From: a virus
Direction: 5' to 3' (one strand)
IMG/VR virus record: IMGVR_UViG_3300028025_002216
Span: 1 to 20,476 of that record
Length of the DNA stretch: 20,476 nt
The notes beneath the pieces are model-generated. The model made no database searches and was not told where the DNA came from. It saw only the letters and a list, made by a program, of their open reading frames with translations. How positions within the stretch are numbered: position 1 is the stretch's first letter; every line of letters starts with the position of its first letter. The position numbers and the translations under genes were made by a program. This document shows positions 3,573 through 17,149 of the stretch, in pieces.

Positions 3573-3573
<1 letters not shown>
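3181..3573 (+). CDS. Short fibre protein with a collagen-like tract
   Basis: A 130-residue protein. The N-terminal 60 residues are helical and look like an attachment segment ([20 protein letters not shown]). A strand-rich part follows ([19 protein letters not shown], then [10 protein letters not shown]). A short Gly-X-Y run ([19 protein letters not shown], about residues 85-103) is followed by a 25-residue tail. The NLTLPKGD-to-collagen transition is typical of phage fibre connectors. It may form a heteromeric or coaxial shaft with the larger collagen-like protein encoded next. The ATG at 3181 overlaps the previous stop; a TTG twelve bases upstream is possible but less likely. Confidence 0.6.
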
Positions 3574-5252
<1,679 letters not shown>

Positions 5253-5258
5253 GACATA

Positions 5259-5423
5259 ATGAGCAAACCACTTATTCAGATTGATGACGATAAAATTCGT
5301 GAGATGACGGATGAAGAATACGCTGAGTATCTATCACTACCTGTTATTAAATTAAGTTTTGATGATAATTTATTTCCTATTTCACTAGACGCTGATGCAT
5401 TAGGTGACGAAACAGAGGTTTAA
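5259..5423 (+). CDS. Small acidic protein downstream of the fibre gene, unknown function
   Basis: A 54-residue protein starting MSKPLIQIDDDKIREMTDEE and ending LGDETEV. It has 15 acidic and 4 basic residues by my count, so it is strongly acidic. The start codon has a good ribosome site (AGGA, five bases upstream), and the gene fits exactly between the fibre stop (5252) and the next start (5425). Its codons match the phage style. A small acidic protein just after a receptor-binding fibre is reminiscent of fibre assembly chaperones, but there is no recognisable motif, so that role is only a suggestion. It is too short for common ORF length cut-offs and could easily be missed. Confidence 0.65.
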   Translation: MSKPLIQIDDDKIREMTDEEYAEYLSLPVIKLSFDDNLFPISLDADALGDETEV

Positions 5424-5424
5424 T

Positions 5425-5862
5425 ATGGCAGGTTTTGACTACATGGGATACAATCAGAAGAAGCGAGCAGCTGGGGCTGGCTACGCTTCGAAGACTGCTG
5501 CTAATACGTATGCCCAGTTTTTGTCTCAGCAACGTGGTGCCCGCAAGAAGTTTGATATTCAACAGCAGTATGAGAAGCAAGCACCGCAGGTGGTTGGTTC
5601 GTTTACTAAGCGTGGTTTGGCTGGTCCTGGTGTTCAGTCGGGTATTTATCAGAAGGGTTTGACTGATTTTGCTCAGCAGAACTTTAGGGATTTGGCTGAC
5701 CTGAACAGTGAAATGGATATGGGTGCACAGCAGGCTAAGTTTGAGCAGGCACAAACCAAGGCTGAGTACGACCAGCAAATTGCAGAGTTAGAGGCAGAGA
5801 AGCAGGCGAGTATTGCTCGGGCTGCTGCAACGTTATCGGCGTTTAAGCCGTTTTTAAGTTAG
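5425..5862 (+). CDS. Ala/Gln-rich coiled-coil protein, probable internal virion protein
   Basis: A 145-residue protein. The first 75 residues are basic and contain MAGFDYMGYNQKKRAAG and a GSFTKRGLAGPGVQSGIY segment. Residues about 85-140 are a long predicted helix rich in Ala, Gln and Glu (QQAKFEQAQTKAEYDQQIAE), likely a coiled coil. The gene stands first in a row of large virion genes, where T7-like phages keep the small internal core protein (gp14-like), so an ejected core protein is a reasonable guess. No sequence signature proves it. The ATG at 5425 follows AGAGG; an in-frame GTG at 5404 would lie inside the preceding small gene and is rejected. Confidence 0.55.
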   Translation: MAGFDYMGYNQKKRAAGAGYASKTAANTYAQFLSQQRGARKKFDIQQQYEKQAPQVVGSFTKRGLAGPGVQSGIYQKGLTDFAQQNFRDLADLNSEMDMGAQQAKFEQAQTKAEYDQQIAELEAEKQASIARAAATLSAFKPFLS

Positions 5863-5871
5863 GAGATTAAA

Positions 5872-6717
5872 ATGGCTGCAAAGAAAATTATTGGTCGTGA
5901 TGCTTTAGGTAATCCTATTTATGAGGGTGAAAAACTTCCTGGTGATATAAACACTGCTCGTATTGGACAGGGTGCAAGTTATAATACGGCTCAAGTTGGT
6001 AAAGGTGCAAACCTTAACACAGCTCGTATTGGTCAAGGTGCAAACGTAAACACCGCCATGAGACCAACAAGTGCTACTAATCCTGATATGATTTCATCTA
6101 AGGATGCCCCACGAAATTTGCAGGGCGCACCACAGAATACTGCTAGAAAAATTATTGGTCTTGGTGCTGCTCCCAGGGTTCCTGATGTTACCGAACTTGA
6201 TGCTATCCGTAAGAAAGCAGCTGCTGATGCTGCTGCAAAAGGTGGCGGTGGTGGTGGCGACCCATACGCCAATTTACTCAAGGCTTTGGCTGGTCTTGGT
6301 GATTATGCTGCTGGTAATATTAATGAGTCAATGGATGCTTTAAATAAAACTCTTGGTGCACAGACAAATCCTTACGCTAACTTTCAAGCACAGAATACTT
6401 CTACTACTCCCGAGCTTGCGCAGTTGCTTCAATCTCAGGGGGTTTCTCAGGACCCGCTTCAACAGTATGCTGCTGCTATTAATGCACAGAATACTGGACA
6501 GGCTGATGCGTTTAAAAATCAGGCAAATATTATGGCTAAGATTTATGGGGCTAATCAGACTGGCTCTATTGCTGATGTTGGTCAGCAACGTGCTGATTTG
6601 TTGAATCAACTTCAGGGCAGTGTTTTGGGTGCTGGTAAGTCTTTGTTGGGTAAGAATCCTGCTAATCGTAATCAGGTATTGCAGATGATTCTTGAAGCTA
6701 TGAAAGTTCAGAGGTAA
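5872..6717 (+). CDS. Virion-associated protein with N-terminal NTARIG repeats, unknown function
   Basis: A 281-residue protein with a strong ribosome site (AGGAG). Residues 27-63 hold four consecutive 11-residue repeats with N at 27, 38, 49 and 60, consensus NTARIGQGAxY. A fifth, weaker copy (QNTARKIIG) follows at about 88-96. Residues 117-135 are Ala-rich and end in six glycines, a likely flexible hinge. The C-terminal half (about 130-281) is helical and rich in Gln, Asn and Ala, with segments such as YANLLKALAGLGDYAAG and LAQLLQSQGVSQDPLQQYAA. The same NTARIG motif recurs in the next gene product. The position between fibre genes and the giant internal protein suggests a virion component. 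I do not recognise the family. Confidence 0.6.
   Translation: MAAKKIIGRDALGNPIYEGEKLPGDINTARIGQGASYNTAQVGKGANLNTARIGQGANVNTAMRPTSATNPDMISSKDAPRNLQGAPQNTARKIIGLGAAPRVPDVTELDAIRKKAAADAAAKGGGGGGDPYANLLKALAGLGDYAAGNINESMDALNKTLGAQTNPYANFQAQNTSTTPELAQLLQSQGVSQDPLQQYAAAINAQNTGQADAFKNQANIMAKIYGANQTGSIADVGQQRADLLNQLQGSVLGAGKSLLGKNPANRNQVLQMILEAMKVQR
5950..6060 (+). repeat. Coding repeat: four NTARIG-type 11-residue units
   Basis: Four 33-base units encode N-T-A-R/Q-I/V-G-Q/K-G-A-x-x. Synonymous codons differ between units (AAC ACT, AAT ACG, AAC ACA, AAC ACC). The peptide repeat is therefore kept by selection and is not a fresh DNA duplication. Confidence 0.85.
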
Positions 6718-6719
6718 TT

Positions 6720-7748
6720 ATGGACACACAGACACAACAGTTGCTGGCTTTGCTGATGAACTCAGCCAAAGGTGGAAACAAAAATGTTAGTTCCATTATG
6801 GGTAATCTTGATAATCCTATTTTATTGGCTATTGCTGGCGCTCTTGACCCTTACTATGGGTCAGGCCAGGGTATGAGTGGTGGCGGAAGTTTATATGGTT
6901 CTTTTGCTAGTGACGAAACAACTCCTGCTGCTGTTAAAGCTGTTATGGATTATGTTGACCAAGGGATGAACCCATATCAGATTGAGGCACAGATTAATGC
7001 TTTAGATTCTGACGTGATTAAGGATTCCGGATATACGGATGAACAGCTTATTTCTATGGGTAAAGAGATGGCTAAAGAAGGTGGCAAAAAAGGCTCCAAT
7101 GTGTTTGCTAAGGCTGGTCTTCGTAATCCTAATGATATTTATGGTCTTGATGATGTTCCTTTGGATGCTTCTCAATCTTTAGATTTTGAGAAGTATCTTA
7201 AAATGGCAAGAAAATCTAAAAAGGGTGAAGAGATGGCTAATTGGCGTTTGGGTGTTGCCCGAAACAACATGAGCAAATACAGCCCCGAGACTGTCGATGT
7301 TCCTGATTGGTTCCCTATGGGAGCAGCACCAGGAACTGTAGCTCAGATTGGTAAGGGCGCAAAGTATAATACGGCTCGTATTGGACTTGACGAGAGCGGT
7401 CAGGGTGCAGATATTAATACGGCTCGTATCGGGCTTGACGAAAACGGTAAAGCTCCAAACTTTAACACAGCTCGTATTGGCGAAGGTGCAGAATACAACA
7501 CAGCCCGTATTGGTCCTGTTGCAGGAAAGTCAAACAAGAAAAAGGGTTCACGTCCTTCAAGAGAAGAATTGGATGCTTTGTCTAGGGCTCAGGCTGGAGT
7601 GGCTGATGTCAATACTCAGGTTAATGCTGACCTTATGCGTGCACAGGCTGTCCGTGAGGGTGCTCTTATGCGAGCACAGCAACAGGGTCGTACGCCGTTT
7701 ACGGACCAAACTTCAGCTCTTCTGAAGTTCATTGCTGGCACTAAGTAA
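6720..7748 (+). CDS. Second NTARIG-repeat virion-associated protein, unknown function
   Basis: A 342-residue protein that starts two bases after the previous stop, with AGAGG upstream. The N-terminal region (about 1-70) is hydrophobic and Gly-rich (NPILLAIAGALDPYYGSG). Residues about 75-180 are helical and charged. Residues about 205-265 contain four perfect NTARIG motifs, with N at 217, 233, 249 and 260. The spacings are 16, 16 and 11 residues; the extra five residues are LDESG or LDENG. The C-terminal 70 residues are basic and helical (NKKKGSRPSREELDALSRA). Sharing the motif with its upstream neighbour suggests the two proteins bind the same partner or each other. No known family is recognised, and a role as an internal core or ejection protein is inferred from gene order. 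Confidence 0.6.
   Translation: MDTQTQQLLALLMNSAKGGNKNVSSIMGNLDNPILLAIAGALDPYYGSGQGMSGGGSLYGSFASDETTPAAVKAVMDYVDQGMNPYQIEAQINALDSDVIKDSGYTDEQLISMGKEMAKEGGKKGSNVFAKAGLRNPNDIYGLDDVPLDASQSLDFEKYLKMARKSKKGEEMANWRLGVARNNMSKYSPETVDVPDWFPMGAAPGTVAQIGKGAKYNTARIGLDESGQGADINTARIGLDENGKAPNFNTARIGEGAEYNTARIGPVAGKSNKKKGSRPSREELDALSRAQAGVADVNTQVNADLMRAQAVREGALMRAQQQGRTPFTDQTSALLKFIAGTK
7338..7514 (+). repeat. Coding repeat: four NTARIG units with variable spacers
   Basis: The units encode (K/Q/E)GAxx-NTARIG, with an LDE(S/N)G spacer after the first two copies. Codons vary synonymously (AATACGGCTCGT, AACACAGCTCGT, AACACAGCCCGT). The motif is the same as in the preceding gene at 5950-6060. Confidence 0.85.
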
Positions 7749-7765: not shown

Positions 7766-10700
7766 ATGGCTAATCCGTATACTGACGTACGGGCTATCAC
7801 TGCCCGCCTTGGGCAGGTTAGACCCGCTGGACCGACCCCTGGTGGGTCTCTGAATCCTACTTCTCCTACTAGGTCCACAGAGTCTATTCAGCTTGGTCGT
7901 GCAGCCAATAAGTTTGCTATTCAGAATCCTCAGCTTCGTGCCGAGATTGAACGTATTGCTAGTGGTTCAGGTTCAGCAAAGCCAAGTGGCTTCCTTGGTA
8001 ATGTTCTTGGTAACCCTGTAACCAAGGTGGCTCTTAAGGGTCTTGAAGCTTTCGCTATTCCTGGTCGTGCTGTTGTTTCTGCTGCTCGTGAATTGACCGA
8101 CGCTTTTGATGGCAACGATAAAACAAAAGCTAGCTTTGGTGATTTTGGTAAGCAAGTTAAGGATTCACAGTTTGGTTTTGGTAAAGCATTCAAGATTAAT
8201 ACTGGCAATATTTGGTTAGATAGAGCTATCGGCTTTGTTGGTGACGTTGCTCTTGACCCTTTAACATACGCAACTTTCGGTGCGTCTGCTGGTCTTAAGG
8301 GTGTTACCGGCTCTGCCAAGCTCGGTAACTATGCTCAAAGAACAACTCTTGCTGCTAAGGTTTTGGAGAATACCGGCGACGCTGCGCTTGCTGCTGACGT
8401 CGCTCGTCGTGGTCGTGTTGCTTTGCGCAACAATCCCGAAGTTCTTGAGCGGGTTGGTGCTAACAAGTTTGGTGTTTACTTCTTTGGTAAGCGTGTTAGG
8501 GTAGGAAAAGACGGCATGGGTTGGCGTGTTCCTCTCAGTGGAACTATTGGTGAACTTAGTGAGTCTGCTCTTTCTCGTGCTCGTCTTGGCATAACAAATA
8601 CACGCTTGGGCAAGTACATGCAGAAGATGACTATGCCTAAAGATTTCTTGGCTATGCGTATTGGTGTTTCTCGTGGAACTTTAAACCCTGAAGACGCTGC
8701 TGATGCCTTGAAGTTGTTCCAGATTGTTCCCAAGCAACGTCTTGCTCGTGCTTCTGCACAGCAGACGCTTGAACAGCAGTTGATGGGTATTCTTAAATCT
8801 GAAGAAGCAAACCTTGATTCCTACCGCAAGACTGTATATAAGTTTATTGAGGACCCGACTAGACTTGCTACTGCTAGCGAGCCTGAGAAGCAGGCTTATG
8901 CTGTTTGGAAGGCTTTCCTTGACGAGCAGTTTGATAAGGTTTCTACTGCGTGGAAGAACGTTGACGAAGCAGCAGAGATTGGGAAAACGGAAAACTATTT
9001 CCCTAGAGTTCGCAGTGATGATGCGCAAAAGTGGCTAGATTCAGATGATGCAAACGCAGCCGATGTACGTGCTGTCTATATGGATGACCCTTTCGCTTTG
9101 CCTGGTGCTTTCACCCCTCGTTCTTTACGTCCGGGTAAAAAGTGGTTTGGTTATATTCTTCAAGAAGGAGATATGACTACGGAGCGTTTGAATCAACTTG
9201 CTCGTATTCACGGCAAGATTGATTTTGATTTCTTTGAAACAGACGTTGTTGATGTTATGCGCAAATACATCTCCGATACTGCTGACGAACTTGGTATTAT
9301 TCAGCGTAACGCCGATTTGAAGGAGACTGGTTTCTTTAGGCGCATCGAGGAGCAACGTATTCGTGAGCTTGAGATTGATGAAGATGACATTGCTTCTGCT
9401 CGTGCTTTCTTGGATGAACAAAACAATATGATGGTTGGTGTTGAGCAGGATTTCCGTCAGGCCGTTACTGACCTTGTTGATAATGTCCGTGCTGAACAGG
9501 TTCGTGTTACCCAGGGTCTTGCTACTGGTGAGCGTTTAGTTCAGGATATGAGCAAATATCTTTATGACATGATGGATGATGTTGCTCGTAAGTCTGAGTT
9601 TATTGCTGGTCTTCGCCAGCGTCTTGTTCAGTTGTGGGGCAAAGAGACAGATATTCCTTTGTATGCGCTCAGTGATGATTTCCCTGTTATGTTGCGTCCT
9701 GTTCTTGGACAGTTTGACCAAATGGTTAATGACTTGAATGATTTTAATGTAATCATTAGTGACTTACATGCACAGTCGATGAAGGCAGGATACGATGCTG
9801 GTGCGACTGAAGATGCTTTGCGTCAAATTGAGGAGGGTGCTAAGGCTGCTCATCAGGCAATGAAGGAAGCGCAAGAGTCCGTTAAGTCAGCAATGGAGTT
9901 GTCTAACGTTATTGAGGGTTCTTGGGATTCTATTGTTGCTGGTCGTTCACCTCGTGTTGGTGGTACGGCTGCTCAAAAGGTTATTAAAGACATTGTTGAC
10001 ATTCTTGCTTTACGCAGAACATCAACTGGCGCCAAGGCTCAGACAGCCAGGGCCAGGGCTGTTGGTGTTTCAGGTAAGCTTAAAGATTTCTTGCGTGATT
10101 CTTTAAACCCTGCTAAACCCAATGATGCTGTAGCAGATTTTTACAAGTCTTTTTGGGATGAGATTGCTGGTGCTGGGCAGGCAGGTATAAAGCCTACTGC
10201 TGTTTCGGATATGACTGAAGAGAAGTTTTTTAATATTATTTTAAGTGCTGCTTCTCCTGATACAAATATTGCCGACCTTCGTGCTGCTGCTGCTTATGCT
10301 ATTGGTCGTGACATTCGCCTCCATCAGGCAACAAAGGTTGAGGACCTTCCTAGATTTGTGCGTCGTTTCCATGAGGACCTTAAGAACATGCTTAAGGAAG
10401 CGGAGTTTGATGAGGCTGCACGTATTGCACGTGGGAAGTCAAGCAAGAATCTAGAAGTTCAGTTGGACAATCTTAGGACTCGTTGGGGTGCTGATTATGA
10501 GGCTGCTGTTACGATGAAGAACGACTTGGACGAGTTGGATGGCGTTGCTCGTTTTGTTGATGATGGTTTCTCTGCACAGTTTGGTGAGGGTTGGGCTGAT
10601 GTCGAGTTTACTGATGCTTTGATTCCTGCTTTAGAGCAGGGAATCTCTGACGGTGCTTCTAAGGCTTCACGTCTTCCTTGGCTGTATGAGTATATTGATA

Positions 10701-13700
10701 ATGCGGATACAATGCTGGGTAAGCAGACTGACGATGTTGTTACTTTGGGTGAAGTTATAGAGCATGTTAAGAAGCGTGCTGACCTCCTTCGTAAGTCCTA
10801 CTATGAGGATACTGTAGAGATTGAAGATGTAATTAGTGCCAACCTTTTGTCGGGTCAGGGTAGCCGTGGTGCTACACGGACTACTCGTGAAACTTTTGTT
10901 TCCAACTATGAGTCTAAGGTTCGTCAGGCACGTAAGGTAGCGGATACAGAGGCTCGTGTTCCTCAGTATAGTCGTGGCGCTACGGAAAAGCTTCGCACTG
11001 CTGATACTGCTCGTGCTAATTTGTCTGAGAGTCTTGTTCATTATCAGGCTGTTTCAGATGCTGTTCAAAAGTTTGAGGCTATCTCTGGTGTGTTGGCTCC
11101 TCATGGTCTTGTTCCTACCGAGGATATGTGGCGTGGGATTATGCGTACTGTTGCTGACCAGTATGGCTCTCAGTATTCAGACAAGGTTCGTCGTATTGTT
11201 GCTGGCGAGGAAAAGTTTACAGAGTTTTATGCTGACTTTACGAAGAAGCTTCAAGAGATGAAGCGTCTTCCAGCTGAGGAGCAGATTCCTGTTTCTAGGT
11301 TGTTCAGGGAACTTCTTGATGGTGTTATGTCCGGTGATGATGCTGAGATTATGCGTGAGCTACTTGGTCCTACGATGGGCCGTATGGTTGACAAGGCTGA
11401 CATGCGTCTTGACCTTAAGACTTTGGAGTCTGCTGTTAGAAATGCAGGCACAGAGGCTGACAAGCAGGCTGCTAAGTTGCGTCTTGATGAGTATGTTCGT
11501 AATTATGTGATTCCTTGGGCAAAGAGTGTTGACCCTACTATTCGTGCAGACAAGGGTCCTGCTACGAATCTTTTGAAGGAACTTACCAGGAACCAGGAAA
11601 TTTCTACTAGGGCTGTTAGTAAAGCCACGTTGCGTAATTTGCGTACTCCTTTAAGTCGTGATGCTTCGGAACTTGATATCTATCGTTGGTTCAACTCTAT
11701 GCTTAAGACTATTGATACTTCTACTGGTGAGACTGTCGCACCTGGCGCTATTGCGCAGATGCGTAACTCTTATCAGGGTAGCGAGATTTTCTTCCGTCGT
11801 ATGAAAGACGGATACATTGATGTTGAGTCTTTTTTTGCTACTCTTGATGGTTCTGCTGATACTCCTTCGGGTTATGCTGTTCAGATGATTGAGCTTGCCA
11901 ACAGGCTTGATGGTGTTACTGTTCTTTCTGAAGAGAATCCTTTTATTCGTGGTTCAATGCTTGATGCTGTTGGTACAAACTATCGTCAAGCATACAAGGG
12001 TGGAGCAAAAGTTGTTGAGCGTAGCGAAAAGCAGGCAGCAGAGGCTGCTGAACTTGCTACTGCCGCACGTGAGATTGCTGATGCATACTCTAATCCTAAT
12101 TTGACTGTTGACGAACTTAAGGAGCTTGGTTTCACCAAGCAGATGATTAAAGAGCGTGAGCAAGTTTTGGCTGTTGAGCGTTTTGATGCTTCTGTAGAGT
12201 ACGCTAATGCTATCAAGGACCAGGAGATGGTTTCTTTCTTGGACTCTGTTGCTGGTGTTAACTTTGCACAGTTTGATGAAGGTATTGTTGTTGGAACTAC
12301 ACGTGTTGAAAAGTTCGCTGATGATTTTATCCCTGAAACTTCAGGCAGTGTCGAAGCTGTAAGAGCTAATGTTCAGTCTCAACTTGATGAACTCGCCAAG
12401 CAGGAAGCCGCAAGTAGGGCCAAAGTTGTTGAACCATATACTGTTCAGCGTGACGGAAAAATTATGTACAAGAGTGCTGAGCACAGGCGTGCTGCACAAA
12501 TAAAGCTTGACCAGTGGGCAAGCGTAGAGCAGGGCAAGTTTAGAAGCGAGCGCATAAGGCTTCAAGGATTAATGGATTCTGCTGAGTCTCGTGTTGTTGC
12601 CTCTACTCGTGAATCTCTTGGTTTTGATGTCGTTCCTGTATTTGCTAAAATGCCTGATGGTTCTACTATTAAGTTTACACAAGCAGAATGGGACTCTCTT
12701 TATATTCCACCGTACAACCAGGCTGGCCTTGCAGAAACAGGACGCACCACACGTGCGTTAATCAAGGAACGCAATAATGTTCGTGGTCTTTTAAATAAAG
12801 CTGTTGACAATCAAGCAAGCACTTGGGACCCTGCAAAGAAGTCTTACATTCGCAGGCTAGAGAAGCGTCTTGCTGAACTTGATGGTAAGATTAAAGCTTC
12901 AGAGCTTGAGATTGAACGCAACATGAAAGTTGTTCGTAACTCTGCTCTTGAAAAAGTTCGTATTCTTGTTAAGCAGCTTCAAGAGTCAACACCGCAAGAT
13001 GGCGGTGTTCACTGGATGAACCAATGGCAGGACGTTGCAGACCAGCTTGGTGCACGCACACTGGGGGCTAATAACATTCTTATAGATGAAGACTGGACAA
13101 AGGCTCTTCCATACAGTGTTATTCCTGATGCTGGTGGTCAGGTTAAGCGTGCATATGCGAACACAACGTTGTCGTATTACTTTAATGTTTTAAAGCGTGG
13201 GGATGATTCTATCAATTCTGTTCCTCAGGCTTGGGGTATTGTCGAGAATGGTATGCAGAAGCGTCGCAACTCCCTACAGGCTATGTGGCGTAGTAATAAG
13301 TCTCATGCTGTTCTTGAGCAGCGTGAGGAACTTGTTCGTGCTGCTGCCTTGACTGCTTATGATGACTTTGAGAAGTATGCACGTATGTCTGCTAAGGCTT
13401 CTGCTGAGGCACGTAAGGCTGCCGACCGTACCCGTGTTGCTGTTGATGATGTTCAGGATTCTTTCCGTAAGGCTGTTATTGAGATGCGCAATACGGAGCT
13501 TCGTGCTGCTAAGGCAGCTGGTGCCGAGTTTGATACTAAGACTCCGTTTTGGTCTACGAACACAGAGATTAACTACACTCTTAACGGTAAGGTTTATAGT
13601 GTTCCTTCTGTTGCTGATATGTTGGCTGACCCTGCTAAGTATGCAAAGAGAGCAAGGCAACGTGGTGATATATTCTTTGACTTGAAGAAGCCAGGTAATG

Positions 13701-15664
13701 TCGTTATGTTTAATGAAGCTAACGAGGCGACTCGTGCGTCTATTGCTTTGTTTGGTATGCAGAATGTTTTGATGCGTGAATCTGCTGACATGTTTGAAGC
13801 TGGGGTTGTTAATCCTTCTTTTGCTAGAAGCAACGAAGTATACAACATTATGGCTCAGTGGTCTGACGAGGCTAGGACATTGGCTGACAATATCAACACT
13901 GTTCGTCAAGCTGTGGCTGTCGAGCGTCAATCAATGTCTGAGGACGTTGTAAAAGCTCTTAATGAACAAACCAAGGACCGCCTTGATATGTTTGAGTTTG
14001 CTGCCGAACTTCGTGCAGTTCTTGATGATTTCGACCCATCTATTGAGTTGAGTCAGGATGGCATGATGCGGATGGAGACTTTGATTTCTAATCTGCGTAA
14101 GCGTTCTGCTTTGATGGAGCGTGTTGTTCAGAACATGCCGACTAAGGCTGACACAGCAGCGTTGAATGCTTCTAAGAAGCCTGCTACTCGTGCTAAGTGG
14201 ATGCAGGTTCATCTTGATTGGATTAACGGCAATCGTTCTGCGTTGCGTGCGTTGGCACAGGCTGACCTTACAGACCCGGGCGAGGCTCGCATTTGGAATG
14301 CGTTCTTGAGTGCGTTTGCTGCTGAGGGTAGGTTTACTTTGCAGGAGAGCCGTGTTGCTGCTGCTCGTTCTGCTTTGGATACTGCGCAGGCTGGCACGTA
14401 TGTCGAGAAGGTGTTGGACCCTGCTTCTAAGAAGTTCCGTGATGCGGCGAATGCGATTCTTGAAACACAGGGACGCACTATTGCTGATGACTTCAACATG
14501 CCTAGCTATTCTGTTAGTGCACCTTTAAATGAAATCATGAATAACCTTGAACGTATTAATGATGGTGCTATTCTTCGTGAGCTTGGTGGCTTCATGAGTT
14601 CGTACACTGGTTTCTTTAAAGCTTATGCTACTCTTAGCCCTGGTTTCCATGTGCGTAACTCCATCAGCAACACCTTCCAGTTGTTTGCTGCTGGTGCTGA
14701 AGTAAAGAACATGAGGGCTGGTTTGAAGTTGTGGCGCTCTCTTGGCGAGCACGTCAGAGATGGAGGAACGCTGGAGACTTGGTTGTCTAGCGGTGCTGTA
14801 CCTGCTGGGATGGAGATGCAGGCACGTATTGCTGGCGAGGTTGCGCTTGCTTTGGGTGGCGGTAAGACTGATGATGCTTTTGCTGAGTTTGTTACTATGG
14901 GCAAGAATCTTTTGACAGATAATGCTGCTACTCGTGCTTCACGTAGCTTTGGTCAGCGTGTTGAGGGTTCTGCTCGTTTCATGTTGGCGTTTGACTCCGC
15001 TGTCAAGGGAGATACTTTCAATGAAGCATTTAACCGTACTAGCCGTTTCTTGGTTGACTACAACAACCCAACGTTGCTAGATGAATCGGTTCGCAATATC
15101 CTTCCGTTTTGGACTTGGATGAGCCGTAACCTGCCGGTGCAGATTACAACACAGTGGACTAATCCTAAGCCGTATGTTGTGTATCAGCGTTTCGTGAACA
15201 ACTTTAGCACCGAAGAGGACGAGCAGTTGCCTCCGTACCTGAGGGACAAGAATCCTATCCAGATTGGCAAGGGTACGTTCCTTGCTCCTGACCTTCCGTT
15301 CATGGCTGCACAAGAAACAATCAATCTTGCCAATAACCCACGCAAGGCTTTGTCAATGGTCAACCCTGGCTTGCGTGTTCCTTTGGAACTAGCTGCAGGT
15401 AAAACGTTCTTCACTGGTCGTGAGTTTGGCAGTGAGCCTGGCCAGCAAAGCGCAATGAGTTACTCGGCGCAGAACTTGTTGCCAATGCTTGGGCAGATTG
15501 ACCGCATCACAGACATGAGTGCTGGTTCGGACCAACTTGGTTTGGCAAGATACCTTGGTATTCCAGTCCGAGGTATGACTGATGAGAAGCGTAACAACGA
15601 ACTTCAGCGACGATTGATTGAACTTCAACAACTACAAAGAAGGACGAGGGGTCTTAATGGCTAA
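7766..15664 (+). CDS. Giant internal virion / ejection protein (2632 aa)
   Basis: A 2632-residue protein, the largest gene here, likely packaged in the head and ejected with the DNA. An N-terminal segment (about 70-200) has amphipathic and hydrophobic stretches including FVGDVALDPLTYATFGAS. An ENYFPRV motif lies at 409-415. Long, mostly helical, charged coiled-coil-like regions follow (about 430-2250). The C-terminal part has AYATLSPGFHVRNSISNTF from about 2286 and a VDYNNPT-to-ILPFWTWMSRN segment (2430-2454). PG-HxRN and DY-to-PFxxW segments of this kind occur in very large internal virion or polyvalent proteins of environmental phages. I see no convincing transglycosylase or protease site. 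Gene order resembles the T7 core proteins gp15 and gp16. It has no clear ribosome site, and its last eight bases overlap the endolysin gene. Confidence 0.7.
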   Translation: MANPYTDVRAITARLGQVRPAGPTPGGSLNPTSPTRSTESIQLGRAANKFAIQNPQLRAEIERIASGSGSAKPSGFLGNVLGNPVTKVALKGLEAFAIPGRAVVSAARELTDAFDGNDKTKASFGDFGKQVKDSQFGFGKAFKINTGNIWLDRAIGFVGDVALDPLTYATFGASAGLKGVTGSAKLGNYAQRTTLAAKVLENTGDAALAADVARRGRVALRNNPEVLERVGANKFGVYFFGKRVRVGKDGMGWRVPLSGTIGELSESALSRARLGITNTRLGKYMQKMTMPKDFLAMRIGVSRGTLNPEDAADALKLFQIVPKQRLARASAQQTLEQQLMGILKSEEANLDSYRKTVYKFIEDPTRLATASEPEKQAYAVWKAFLDEQFDKVSTAWKNVDEAAEIGKTENYFPRVRSDDAQKWLDSDDANAADVRAVYMDDPFALPGAFTPRSLRPGKKWFGYILQEGDMTTERLNQLARIHGKIDFDFFETDVVDVMRKYISDTADELGIIQRNADLKETGFFRRIEEQRIRELEIDEDDIASARAFLDEQNNMMVGVEQDFRQAVTDLVDNVRAEQVRVTQGLATGERLVQDMSKYLYDMMDDVARKSEFIAGLRQRLVQLWGKETDIPLYALSDDFPVMLRPVLGQFDQMVNDLNDFNVIISDLHAQSMKAGYDAGATEDALRQIEEGAKAAHQAMKEAQESVKSAMELSNVIEGSWDSIVAGRSPRVGGTAAQKVIKDIVDILALRRTSTGAKAQTARARAVGVSGKLKDFLRDSLNPAKPNDAVADFYKSFWDEIAGAGQAGIKPTAVSDMTEEKFFNIILSAASPDTNIADLRAAAAYAIGRDIRLHQATKVEDLPRFVRRFHEDLKNMLKEAEFDEAARIARGKSSKNLEVQLDNLRTRWGADYEAAVTMKNDLDELDGVARFVDDGFSAQFGEGWADVEFTDALIPALEQGISDGASKASRLPWLYEYIDNADTMLGKQTDDVVTLGEVIEHVKKRADLLRKSYYEDTVEIEDVISANLLSGQGSRGATRTTRETFVSNYESKVRQARKVADTEARVPQYSRGATEKLRTADTARANLSESLVHYQAVSDAVQKFEAISGVLAPHGLVPTEDMWRGIMRTVADQYGSQYSDKVRRIVAGEEKFTEFYADFTKKLQEMKRLPAEEQIPVSRLFRELLDGVMSGDDAEIMRELLGPTMGRMVDKADMRLDLKTLESAVRNAGTEADKQAAKLRLDEYVRNYVIPWAKSVDPTIRADKGPATNLLKELTRNQEISTRAVSKATLRNLRTPLSRDASELDIYRWFNSMLKTIDTSTGETVAPGAIAQMRNSYQGSEIFFRRMKDGYIDVESFFATLDGSADTPSGYAVQMIELANRLDGVTVLSEENPFIRGSMLDAVGTNYRQAYKGGAKVVERSEKQAAEAAELATAAREIADAYSNPNLTVDELKELGFTKQMIKEREQVLAVERFDASVEYANAIKDQEMVSFLDSVAGVNFAQFDEGIVVGTTRVEKFADDFIPETSGSVEAVRANVQSQLDELAKQEAASRAKVVEPYTVQRDGKIMYKSAEHRRAAQIKLDQWASVEQGKFRSERIRLQGLMDSAESRVVASTRESLGFDVVPVFAKMPDGSTIKFTQAEWDSLYIPPYNQAGLAETGRTTRALIKERNNVRGLLNKAVDNQASTWDPAKKSYIRRLEKRLAELDGKIKASELEIERNMKVVRNSALEKVRILVKQLQESTPQDGGVHWMNQWQDVADQLGARTLGANNILIDEDWTKALPYSVIPDAGGQVKRAYANTTLSYYFNVLKRGDDSINSVPQAWGIVENGMQKRRNSLQAMWRSNKSHAVLEQREELVRAAALTAYDDFEKYARMSAKASAEARKAADRTRVAVDDVQDSFRKAVIEMRNTELRAAKAAGAEFDTKTPFWSTNTEINYTLNGKVYSVPSVADMLADPAKYAKRARQRGDIFFDLKKPGNVVMFNEANEATRASIALFGMQNVLMRESADMFEAGVVNPSFARSNEVYNIMAQWSDEARTLADNINTVRQAVAVERQSMSEDVVKALNEQTKDRLDMFEFAAELRAVLDDFDPSIELSQDGMMRMETLISNLRKRSALMERVVQNMPTKADTAALNASKKPATRAKWMQVHLDWINGNRSALRALAQADLTDPGEARIWNAFLSAFAAEGRFTLQESRVAAARSALDTAQAGTYVEKVLDPASKKFRDAANAILETQGRTIADDFNMPSYSVSAPLNEIMNNLERINDGAILRELGGFMSSYTGFFKAYATLSPGFHVRNSISNTFQLFAAGAEVKNMRAGLKLWRSLGEHVRDGGTLETWLSSGAVPAGMEMQARIAGEVALALGGGKTDDAFAEFVTMGKNLLTDNAATRASRSFGQRVEGSARFMLAFDSAVKGDTFNEAFNRTSRFLVDYNNPTLLDESVRNILPFWTWMSRNLPVQITTQWTNPKPYVVYQRFVNNFSTEEDEQLPPYLRDKNPIQIGKGTFLAPDLPFMAAQETINLANNPRKALSMVNPGLRVPLELAAGKTFFTGREFGSEPGQQSAMSYSAQNLLPMLGQIDRITDMSAGSDQLGLARYLGIPVRGMTDEKRNNELQRRLIELQQLQRRTRGLNG

Positions 15665-16186: not shown

Positions 16187-17149
16187 ATGGCTTTTGGACT
16201 TGATGATTTAGCGGATTGGGTTAGAAACCTTGTAGATAACGGAGCTAATGCTGTTAACGTTGTTAATGGTGACGCACCGTTAACAAACATTCAATCTGTT
16301 AATCAGAATGTTAAGCAGGGTATTATTGACCCGGGTAAAATGCTGTCCGAGTTTAGTGGTCTTGCACAAGGGTACCGTGGTGCTAAACCAAACTCAAGCA
16401 CAATGGACAAGGGGCTTGCTTTGTTGGCGTTGACTGGTTACCTGTCGGGTGGAGCTGCAAACAGTCTTGCCAAAGACCCCCGTGTGTATGCAAAGGGTCC
16501 TAGTATTCTTGGTAAAACTATTGATATAATAAATGATTTTCGTCCATCTAGAAATAACATATATGGCGTTCACATGTCACCAACACCAGGACTAAAGAAA
16601 ATTGATATTGCTGAAGGAATAAAAGCTGGAATTGCAAAACCAAACTGGTACGACAACCAAGAGGGTGCTAACTATTTCTTTAACATGGACAATACTACTG
16701 ACATAAAACTCAGACAAATGAAATCATATCTTGATGCTTTTGGTCGTGGTAAAAATAGTTCTATGTCTGCATATCTTGTTCGTGCTCCTAAAAAAGGCGC
16801 ATTTACAGATGCAAATGATATGTATGTAGGTGAAGAAAGTCTTCGACAAAAATTAGCCTATTTGTTTGACGAAGCTAAAGCTAGTGGGGGAATTGACCTT
16901 GATGGTCAAATGTATACAAAAAAACCATTGAAAGTTTTAAAAGAAATAAAATTAGGGCAAGATGGTGGTCGTCGATTTATCTCATCTAAAAAATTGGCTG
17001 ATGCTATGTTAAAATTTAATTCTAAAAATCCAAACTCAAATAAAATTAATAAATCTATAATTGAAGAATGGGGTAATAAAATGTTAAAACAAGAACAACA
17101 AGATATGGCCGACCATCTTGAAAACTTTTCGAAATACAAAGGTAAATGA
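16187..17149 (+). CDS. 320-residue protein with AT-rich, possibly acquired C-terminal domain (ADP-ribosyltransferase-like?)
   Basis: A protein of unknown function, last in the late block and ending just before the terminator. The N-terminal part (about 1-115; WVRNLVDNGANAVNVVNGD, then a Gly-rich hydrophobic segment LALLALTGYLSGGAANSL) uses the same codon style as the virion genes. From about residue 115 the DNA becomes markedly AT-rich, with AAA, ATA and TTA codons common. The C-terminal part has YGVHMSPTPGLKKI (His129), ANYFF (Tyr163), SAYLVRAPKKGAF and MYVGEESL (Glu216/217). This order of H, Y and E patches resembles ADP-ribosyltransferase folds, but similarity is weak and this is only a hypothesis. 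Alternatives are a virion effector or an accessory lysis-time protein. The ribosome site is weak. Confidence 0.55.
   Translation: MAFGLDDLADWVRNLVDNGANAVNVVNGDAPLTNIQSVNQNVKQGIIDPGKMLSEFSGLAQGYRGAKPNSSTMDKGLALLALTGYLSGGAANSLAKDPRVYAKGPSILGKTIDIINDFRPSRNNIYGVHMSPTPGLKKIDIAEGIKAGIAKPNWYDNQEGANYFFNMDNTTDIKLRQMKSYLDAFGRGKNSSMSAYLVRAPKKGAFTDANDMYVGEESLRQKLAYLFDEAKASGGIDLDGQMYTKKPLKVLKEIKLGQDGGRRFISSKKLADAMLKFNSKNPNSNKINKSIIEEWGNKMLKQEQQDMADHLENFSKYKGK

Follow-up and report, generated by a model that had tools for sequence, protein, structure and literature searches.

The window analysed here is the whole stretch of 20,476 nt of the IMG/VR viral record IMGVR_UViG_3300028025_002216. It carries, in this order, an adaptor, a 535-aa tail-type protein, a fibre, four genes that we designate Z, A, B and C, and a VanY-type peptidase. 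The features considered are as follows.

334-1032: SU10-type adaptor (PF24175, E 4.9e-23)
3573-5252: fibre, long and collagen-like (PF01391), with an Mtd domain (PF18454) at its N-terminus
5404-5862, plus strand: Z, 144 aa from an ATG at about 5428; the best-conserved of the four genes, used as bait for relatives
5872-6717, plus strand: A, 281 aa; a short beta-hairpin, then a disordered repeat tail, then a helical core
5884-5922, plus strand: predicted beta-hairpin of A, KIIGRDALGNPIY, residues 5-17 (AF2 strands at 6-9 and 15-17; block pLDDT 81-85)
5944-6066, plus strand: repeat array of A, residues 25-65, units N27, N38, N49 and N60 (AF2 pLDDT about 40-52)
6124-6156, plus strand: degenerate copy in A, GAPQNTARKII, residues 85-95 (from sequence comparison with relatives)
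6720-7748, plus strand: B, 342 aa; a conserved N-domain, a hypervariable linker and conserved C-terminal helices
7167-7271, plus strand: helix 150-184 of B, the first arm beside the repeat loop (AF2 block pLDDT 63-93)
7320-7352, plus strand: degenerate unit in B, GAAPGTVAQIG, residues 201-211 (from sequence)
7356-7517, plus strand: repeat array of B, residues 213-266, NTARIG at 217, 233, 249 and 260 (from sequence)
7560-7682, plus strand: helix 281-321 of B, the second arm beside the repeat loop (AF2 pLDDT 78-92)
7766-15664, plus strand: C, 2632 aa, large and last in the block; gp16-like solely by size and position

The 535-aa protein upstream of the fibre is related to PHROG structural proteins. 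The C-terminal part of the fibre was unrelated among close relatives. Downstream of the VanY-type peptidase, a gene for 320 aa (16187-17149) had no family match, nor any counterpart on the closest relative's contig of 38 kb. Z, A, B and C matched no described family among the profiles of Pfam, PHROGs, NCBIfam and PDB, with nothing above threshold for Z in any of the four, and Foldseek returned nothing of weight. Structure searches gave weak helical matches only. When 18 distant A proteins and 18 distant B proteins were compared with PHROGs, a single B matched a family, which was uninformative. C was distantly similar to gene 29 of the Arthrobacter phage Jasmine and to two Manatee Spring podoviruses, in one of which the match lies near WhiB genes.

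Z is encoded by 160 viral contigs, 80 of which were among those examined, and on the examined contigs of sufficient length the genes after it were, with few exceptions, an A-like one, a B-like one and a large C-like one. Judged from this gene order, Z-A-B-C is a conserved four-gene block of uncultured podophage-like contigs. Small, medium and large proteins clustered after the tail genes are also found in T7 (gp14, gp15 and gp16) and P22 (gp7, gp20 and gp16). Since the order of sizes and the position resemble the gp14-gp15-gp16 block of T7-like phages, A and B probably serve an actinobacterial phage as ejection (internal virion) proteins. The block differs from those of T7 and P22 in having four genes instead of three and in showing no sequence or profile match to known ejection proteins. 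Jasmine (Jasminevirus) is a podovirus of an actinobacterial host. Its genome and the Manatee Spring contigs resemble the window in the distant homology of C and in a similar gene order before C, but homology to A and B is undetectable there by sequence, and a shared A/B motif in genes 27 and 28 of Jasmine was not above shuffles (67 against a shuffle maximum of 72). Podophage ejection proteins are reported to be divergent and mosaic (PMC8954989).

Sequence comparison confirmed both arrays as the initial annotation had described them. A carries four tandem units with a period of 11 residues (N27, N38, N49 and N60), reading NTARIG, NTAQVG, NTARIG and NTAMRP in order, which gives an exact NTARIG in only two of the four, and a degenerate copy, GAPQNTARKIIG, with its N at residue 89. 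B carries four perfect NTARIG motifs with 16/16/11 spacing, together with the degenerate unit at residues 201-211, which was absent from the earlier list. The unit of B equals the 11-residue unit of A once the five-residue inserts LDESG and LDENG are allowed for, and local alignment of A with B scored 12.6 SD over shuffled B. Outside the repeats no likeness between the two proteins was detectable by sequence comparison, in agreement with their description as otherwise dissimilar. The hairpin of A is retained in the closest relative (L008, which is L016) and in L007. The counterpart of the degenerate copy in the A proteins of these two reads QGAPxxTxxRIxG, and we therefore regard this copy as part of an older A tail.

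The initial annotation had considered that NTARIG could turn up as a common low-complexity linker in unrelated proteins, and this was ruled out. Among 2.9 million viral contigs GAxxNTARIG was found in a real gene only in the window and in one relative, the remaining matches being stray open frames of 19-20 residues, and it was absent from 50,697 phage records. Prophage or host copies were likewise absent from genome contigs. Pattern matching and alignment across seven phage contigs gave no third gene carrying the motif of its lineage, with some weak top scores there. C begins with MANPYTDVRAITARLGQV (7766-7840), which resembles NTARIGQ, but the ITARLGQ stretch is kept in relatives without NTARIG and the likeness is probably due to chance.

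The B protein of L008 is 78% identical to that of the window and retains all four NTARIG motifs, while its A has none and keeps just a degenerate GAPQDTARRIIG. In L003, L005 and L007, which are slightly more distant, NTARIG is found in neither protein. As read from these sequences, A can do without NTARIG when B retains it, and L008 thus excludes an obligatory A-B pairing through NTARIG. In a codon comparison of B between the window and L008, the four NTARIG motifs (24 codons) differ at 11 codons synonymously and at none non-synonymously; the corresponding counts are 8 and 10 for the spacers separating the motifs and 102 and 74 for the whole B gene. The ratio of 11 to 0 against 102 to 74 gene-wide indicates purifying selection on NTARIG in B. 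It had been argued earlier that the peptide is under selection because the codons differ between copies. Selection holds for B and the copies do differ, but the A and B copies of the window share codons beyond chance (0.605 against 0.428 +/- 0.057 for random synonymous choice; P=0.0004), which indicates that copying at the DNA level between the two genes contributed.

Such copying is in line with a reading in which the arrays are loose linkers, that is, weakly constrained disordered spacers whose slippage repeats were copied between adjacent genes and whose shared motif has no common function. The loss of the motif from the A protein of L008, the lack of a shared motif in most relatives, the disorder in the AF2 models and the unrelated repeats in other tails (such as PTPAKATPPPPKKAGA in L018) all agree with it. 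The purifying selection on NTARIG in B speaks against it, as do three observations from other lineages presented below: peptides conserved under synonymous saturation in L061 and L009, tail and linker types that correlate across a non-correlated intervening domain, and peptides that are not shared with other genes of the same phages. We regard this explanation as credible but unlikely.

In the AF2 models, pLDDT fell below 50 at residues 27-82 of A and 189-275 of B, where the alignments were shallow and the arrays appeared disordered. The repeat blocks had a pLDDT of 26-52 and almost no strands. In A the array comes after the confident beta-hairpin (residues 6-17), and in B it forms a loop joining helices 150-184 and 281-321. 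These models thus give no support to a solenoid that is stable in the isolated protein, although the shallow alignments of the arrays keep them from being decisive. The short beta-solenoid that had been suggested from the sequence was left with a weak resemblance to the curlin kernel.

The published curlin kernel is N-x-Psi-x-Psi-x-Q (PMC10192328); in curlin it recurs with X-G-X-X arcs. Of three A units compared at the 11-residue period, two fit it fully and the third has K for Q, whereas the Gln after the kernel was found in none of the four B units. Among trials with column-shuffled repeats, 0.5-1.3% matched the kernel. Curlin_rpt (PF07012) was the only Pfam family suggested for the A array, at E 0.11 and 12.9 bits against a gathering threshold of 20.7, and full-length A, full-length B and the B protein of L008 had no Curlin match at E<=10. 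When the A array was compared by tblastn with 7.3 Gb of plasmid records, only E. coli records were returned, at 45-47.5% identity and insignificant E values of 0.7-3; in every match with an annotated gene, this gene was csgB. The window resembles the curlin pair CsgA/CsgB in the period of 11, in the N-x-A-x-I-x-Q pattern of A and in the presence of the same repeat in two adjacent genes. It differs in having just three to four half repeats, which AF2 leaves unfolded, and no csg genes or secretion signal were seen in it. Since the arrays lie below the Pfam threshold, B lacks the Gln and both full-length proteins are unmatched, we did not file them as curlin.

A short motif common to the products of adjacent genes and variable between lineages is also a known signature of amyloid signalling pairs (BASS, HET-s and RHIM) (PMC9815663). 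A and B differ from these in not being an NLR and its effector, and the arrays had no Pfam match to RHIM. Because of this signature (PMC9815663), we kept like-with-like stacking as the main novel alternative: the repeats of A and B would co-assemble as short cross-beta, curli-like arcades, so that both need the same sequence and no third partner is involved. The kernel fit of the A unit, the Curlin_rpt suggestion and the csgB matches point in this direction, while the low-confidence and almost strandless models, the failure of the full-length proteins to match Curlin, the missing Gln of B, the missing RHIM match and the absence of the motif from the A protein of L008 point away from it, and we consider it rather unlikely. 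A wider proposal is that, in actinobacterial podophages, two ejection-type proteins encoded side by side recognise or co-assemble with each other via matched repeats as a like-with-like code of curli-like beta-stacking, swapped as a cassette pair without changing the rest of the particle. It appears doubtful to us to a slightly greater degree.

Sharing of a peptide between A and B is found in two further lineages, with different peptides. In L061, AKNPKVNIGQ units occur in both A and B (z 16.7), and in L023/L009, VIPGKGYKQT/PGKGYKQT occurs in both (z 8.5). The ungapped scores of the cognate A and B proteins were 121 for L061, 82 for L023 and 78 for the window, compared with 74 for the 99.9th percentile of 3080 non-cognate A and B pairs. 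Only three of these non-cognate pairs reached at least 78, namely one glycine run and window A with the B of L016, which carries the same motif, both above 78, and another glycine run equal to 78. The A-C and B-C pairs showed no comparable excess of ungapped score. The codon identity between the A and B copies was at the random synonymous level in L061 and L009 (P 0.78 and 0.92), with 5 synonymous and 0 non-synonymous differences in the 10-mer of L061 and 9 and 4 in the 19-mer of L009. As the codons are random and the peptides match, sharing in these two lineages is old and held at the peptide level. Recent DNA duplication as the entire cause is therefore partly true for the window and was rejected for L061 and L009. 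A visible shared motif is sporadic, being present in 3 of 56 distinct cognate pairs.

The suggestion that the repeats are a processing signal, cut at each unit, gained nothing from this comparison. The repetition itself is the one feature in its favour, and three unrelated peptides at the same place leave no conserved cut-like residue across lineages, which makes it highly improbable.

A profile-wide alignment placed the repeats exactly within two hypervariable regions. One is the tail at the N-terminus of A; the other is the B linker, between the conserved N-domain (about 1-155) and the conserved C-terminal helices. Comparison of L009 with L020 at the DNA level gave identities of 93-99% for Z, about 93-97% for part of the B N-domain, 97-99% for the end of B and about 92-99% for the first part of C, whereas the A tail and the B linker both fall to about 30-40%. 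The pattern recurred at the protein level in three independent pairs of near-identical phages (Z at least 97%), with 49-56% for the A tail and 17-41% for the B linker against 77-97% for the A core and 85-92% for the B N-domain. Near-identical phages have thus swapped both segments.

The two segments also vary together. In a set of 17 genomes, A-tail similarity correlated with B-linker similarity once A core and B N-domain similarity were controlled for (partial r 0.74, P<0.0005, reached by 0 of 2000 permutations), a result that rests on about nine informative pairs. L010 and L012 have the same tail and linker types although the intervening B N-domain differs, and L012/L014 show that the coupling is not absolute. 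As adjacent genes can recombine together, this co-variation is good but not final evidence of coupling. The initial annotation had held that free loss of the motif by related phages in one protein, with retention in the other, would refute it. L008 shows this in part, but the link between A and B itself is real, because two other lineages share different peptides and the segments co-vary. The finding is thus broader than first reported: by sequence, two neighbouring proteins, probably ejection proteins, have hypervariable segments that are linked and that can both carry one peptide specific to the lineage.

Other tails were also observed. In L018 (5434-6345) the A tail is the proline-rich repeat PTPAKATPPPPKKAGA, which has no counterpart in B. 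The A proteins of L003, L010, L011, L012 and L014 start with another tail type, in which W(T)YDxKxKKW hairpin-like segments are followed by DDERxRYGFSGDxxDSRTAxAI, and tails of this type also vary among close relatives.

The pair L023 and L021 was informative about the choice of a partner, with portal, scaffold and capsid labels in these and related contigs given by gene order and size. When the whole contigs were compared, identity was 99.5% for the portal-like protein (aligned part), 97% for the scaffold-like protein, 99% for the capsid, 98% for both the adaptor and Z, and 93-98% for C. Strong differences were seen in A and B, in the fibre genes and in a gene for 178 aa that follows the capsid gene. 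In L015/L014, C (66-71%) and a tail protein (65%) differ too, and this pair is less informative. The fibre type was rejected as the determinant of the cassette, as L011 and L014 have an identical fibre end yet differ in both segments. Because they are 93-99% identical across the L023/L021 swap, the portal-like, scaffold-like and capsid proteins, Z and C are disfavoured as partner of the segments, and the near-constant backbone points to a host component or to a contact between A and B. That no backbone virion gene changes along with the segments is also what stacking of A on B would lead one to expect, but the L023 peptide lies outside the curlin kernel pattern.

The same pair bears on the possibility of a packaging tag, a capsid-targeting signal that would load A and B into the procapsid. 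In T4 a conserved capsid targeting sequence (CTS) loads diverse internal proteins, likewise by one short peptide on otherwise dissimilar proteins (PMC3012670), and ejection-type proteins enter the procapsid with the DNA (PMC8954989). However, the tag of the window is repeated, is internal in B and varies between related phages, and the natural receptors, the scaffold-, portal- and capsid-type proteins, stay 97-99% identical while it is swapped. It is carried by A and B only, not by Z or C. A T4-type tag is bound by the scaffold core, and the scaffold-like gene does not vary with the tag here. We consider this role quite improbable.

We tentatively prefer, at somewhat below an even chance, to read the NTARIG arrays as peptides for docking to a single surface, carried by two segments that are coupled and can be exchanged. 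These segments, the tail at the N-terminus of A and the inter-helix loop of B, would be flexible and would offer this surface one and the same peptide, which would keep both segments alike, and repetition would raise avidity. When a lineage moves to another surface, both segments would be replaced together. This supposes that the segments bind something, that the bound surface is common to A and B, and that both are virion ejection proteins. A docking site repeated to match a symmetric partner had been among the initial suggestions. Docking remains the best reading in view of the sharing in three lineages, with peptides confined to A and B in the contigs scanned, the selection on NTARIG in B, the retention at the peptide level in L061 and L009, the replacement of both segments in near-identical phages with a nearly constant backbone in L023/L021, the co-variation and the predicted disorder of both arrays beside confidently modelled elements, but strict A-B pairing is contradicted by L008, whose loss of NTARIG from A also disfavours an obligatory A-B contact through this motif. 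The same loss, the presence of a shared motif in so few cognate pairs, the small number of similar pairs behind the correlation and the ability of adjacent genes to recombine together count against the docking reading as well.

The linked segments belong near known kinds, the mosaic ejection proteins and the shared short tags. The searched text of the review of ejection proteins contained no comparable repeated peptide shared between proteins (PMC8954989), and no partner-recognition code between ejection proteins was described in the literature searched. Few parts of short-tailed phages change as fast, or are as poorly understood, as the ejection proteins. If the A tail and the B loop are matched docking segments, they mark the parts touching the common partner, and the divergence of these segments beside fixed flanking domains would be explained. 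A sequence rule, a peptide common to A and B, would then predict interaction in uncultured phages.

Another repeat protein of these phages is also hypervariable. A basic protein after the capsid gene in the L008/L016 contig (L123:14325-15032) carries (P/Q)S(A/V)RAAGA tandem repeats and has counterparts at L133:10637-11239 and L125:8400-8936. In comparisons of near-identical phages it is either unmatched or has an identity of about 50%, and it is a candidate for a fast-switching virion part.
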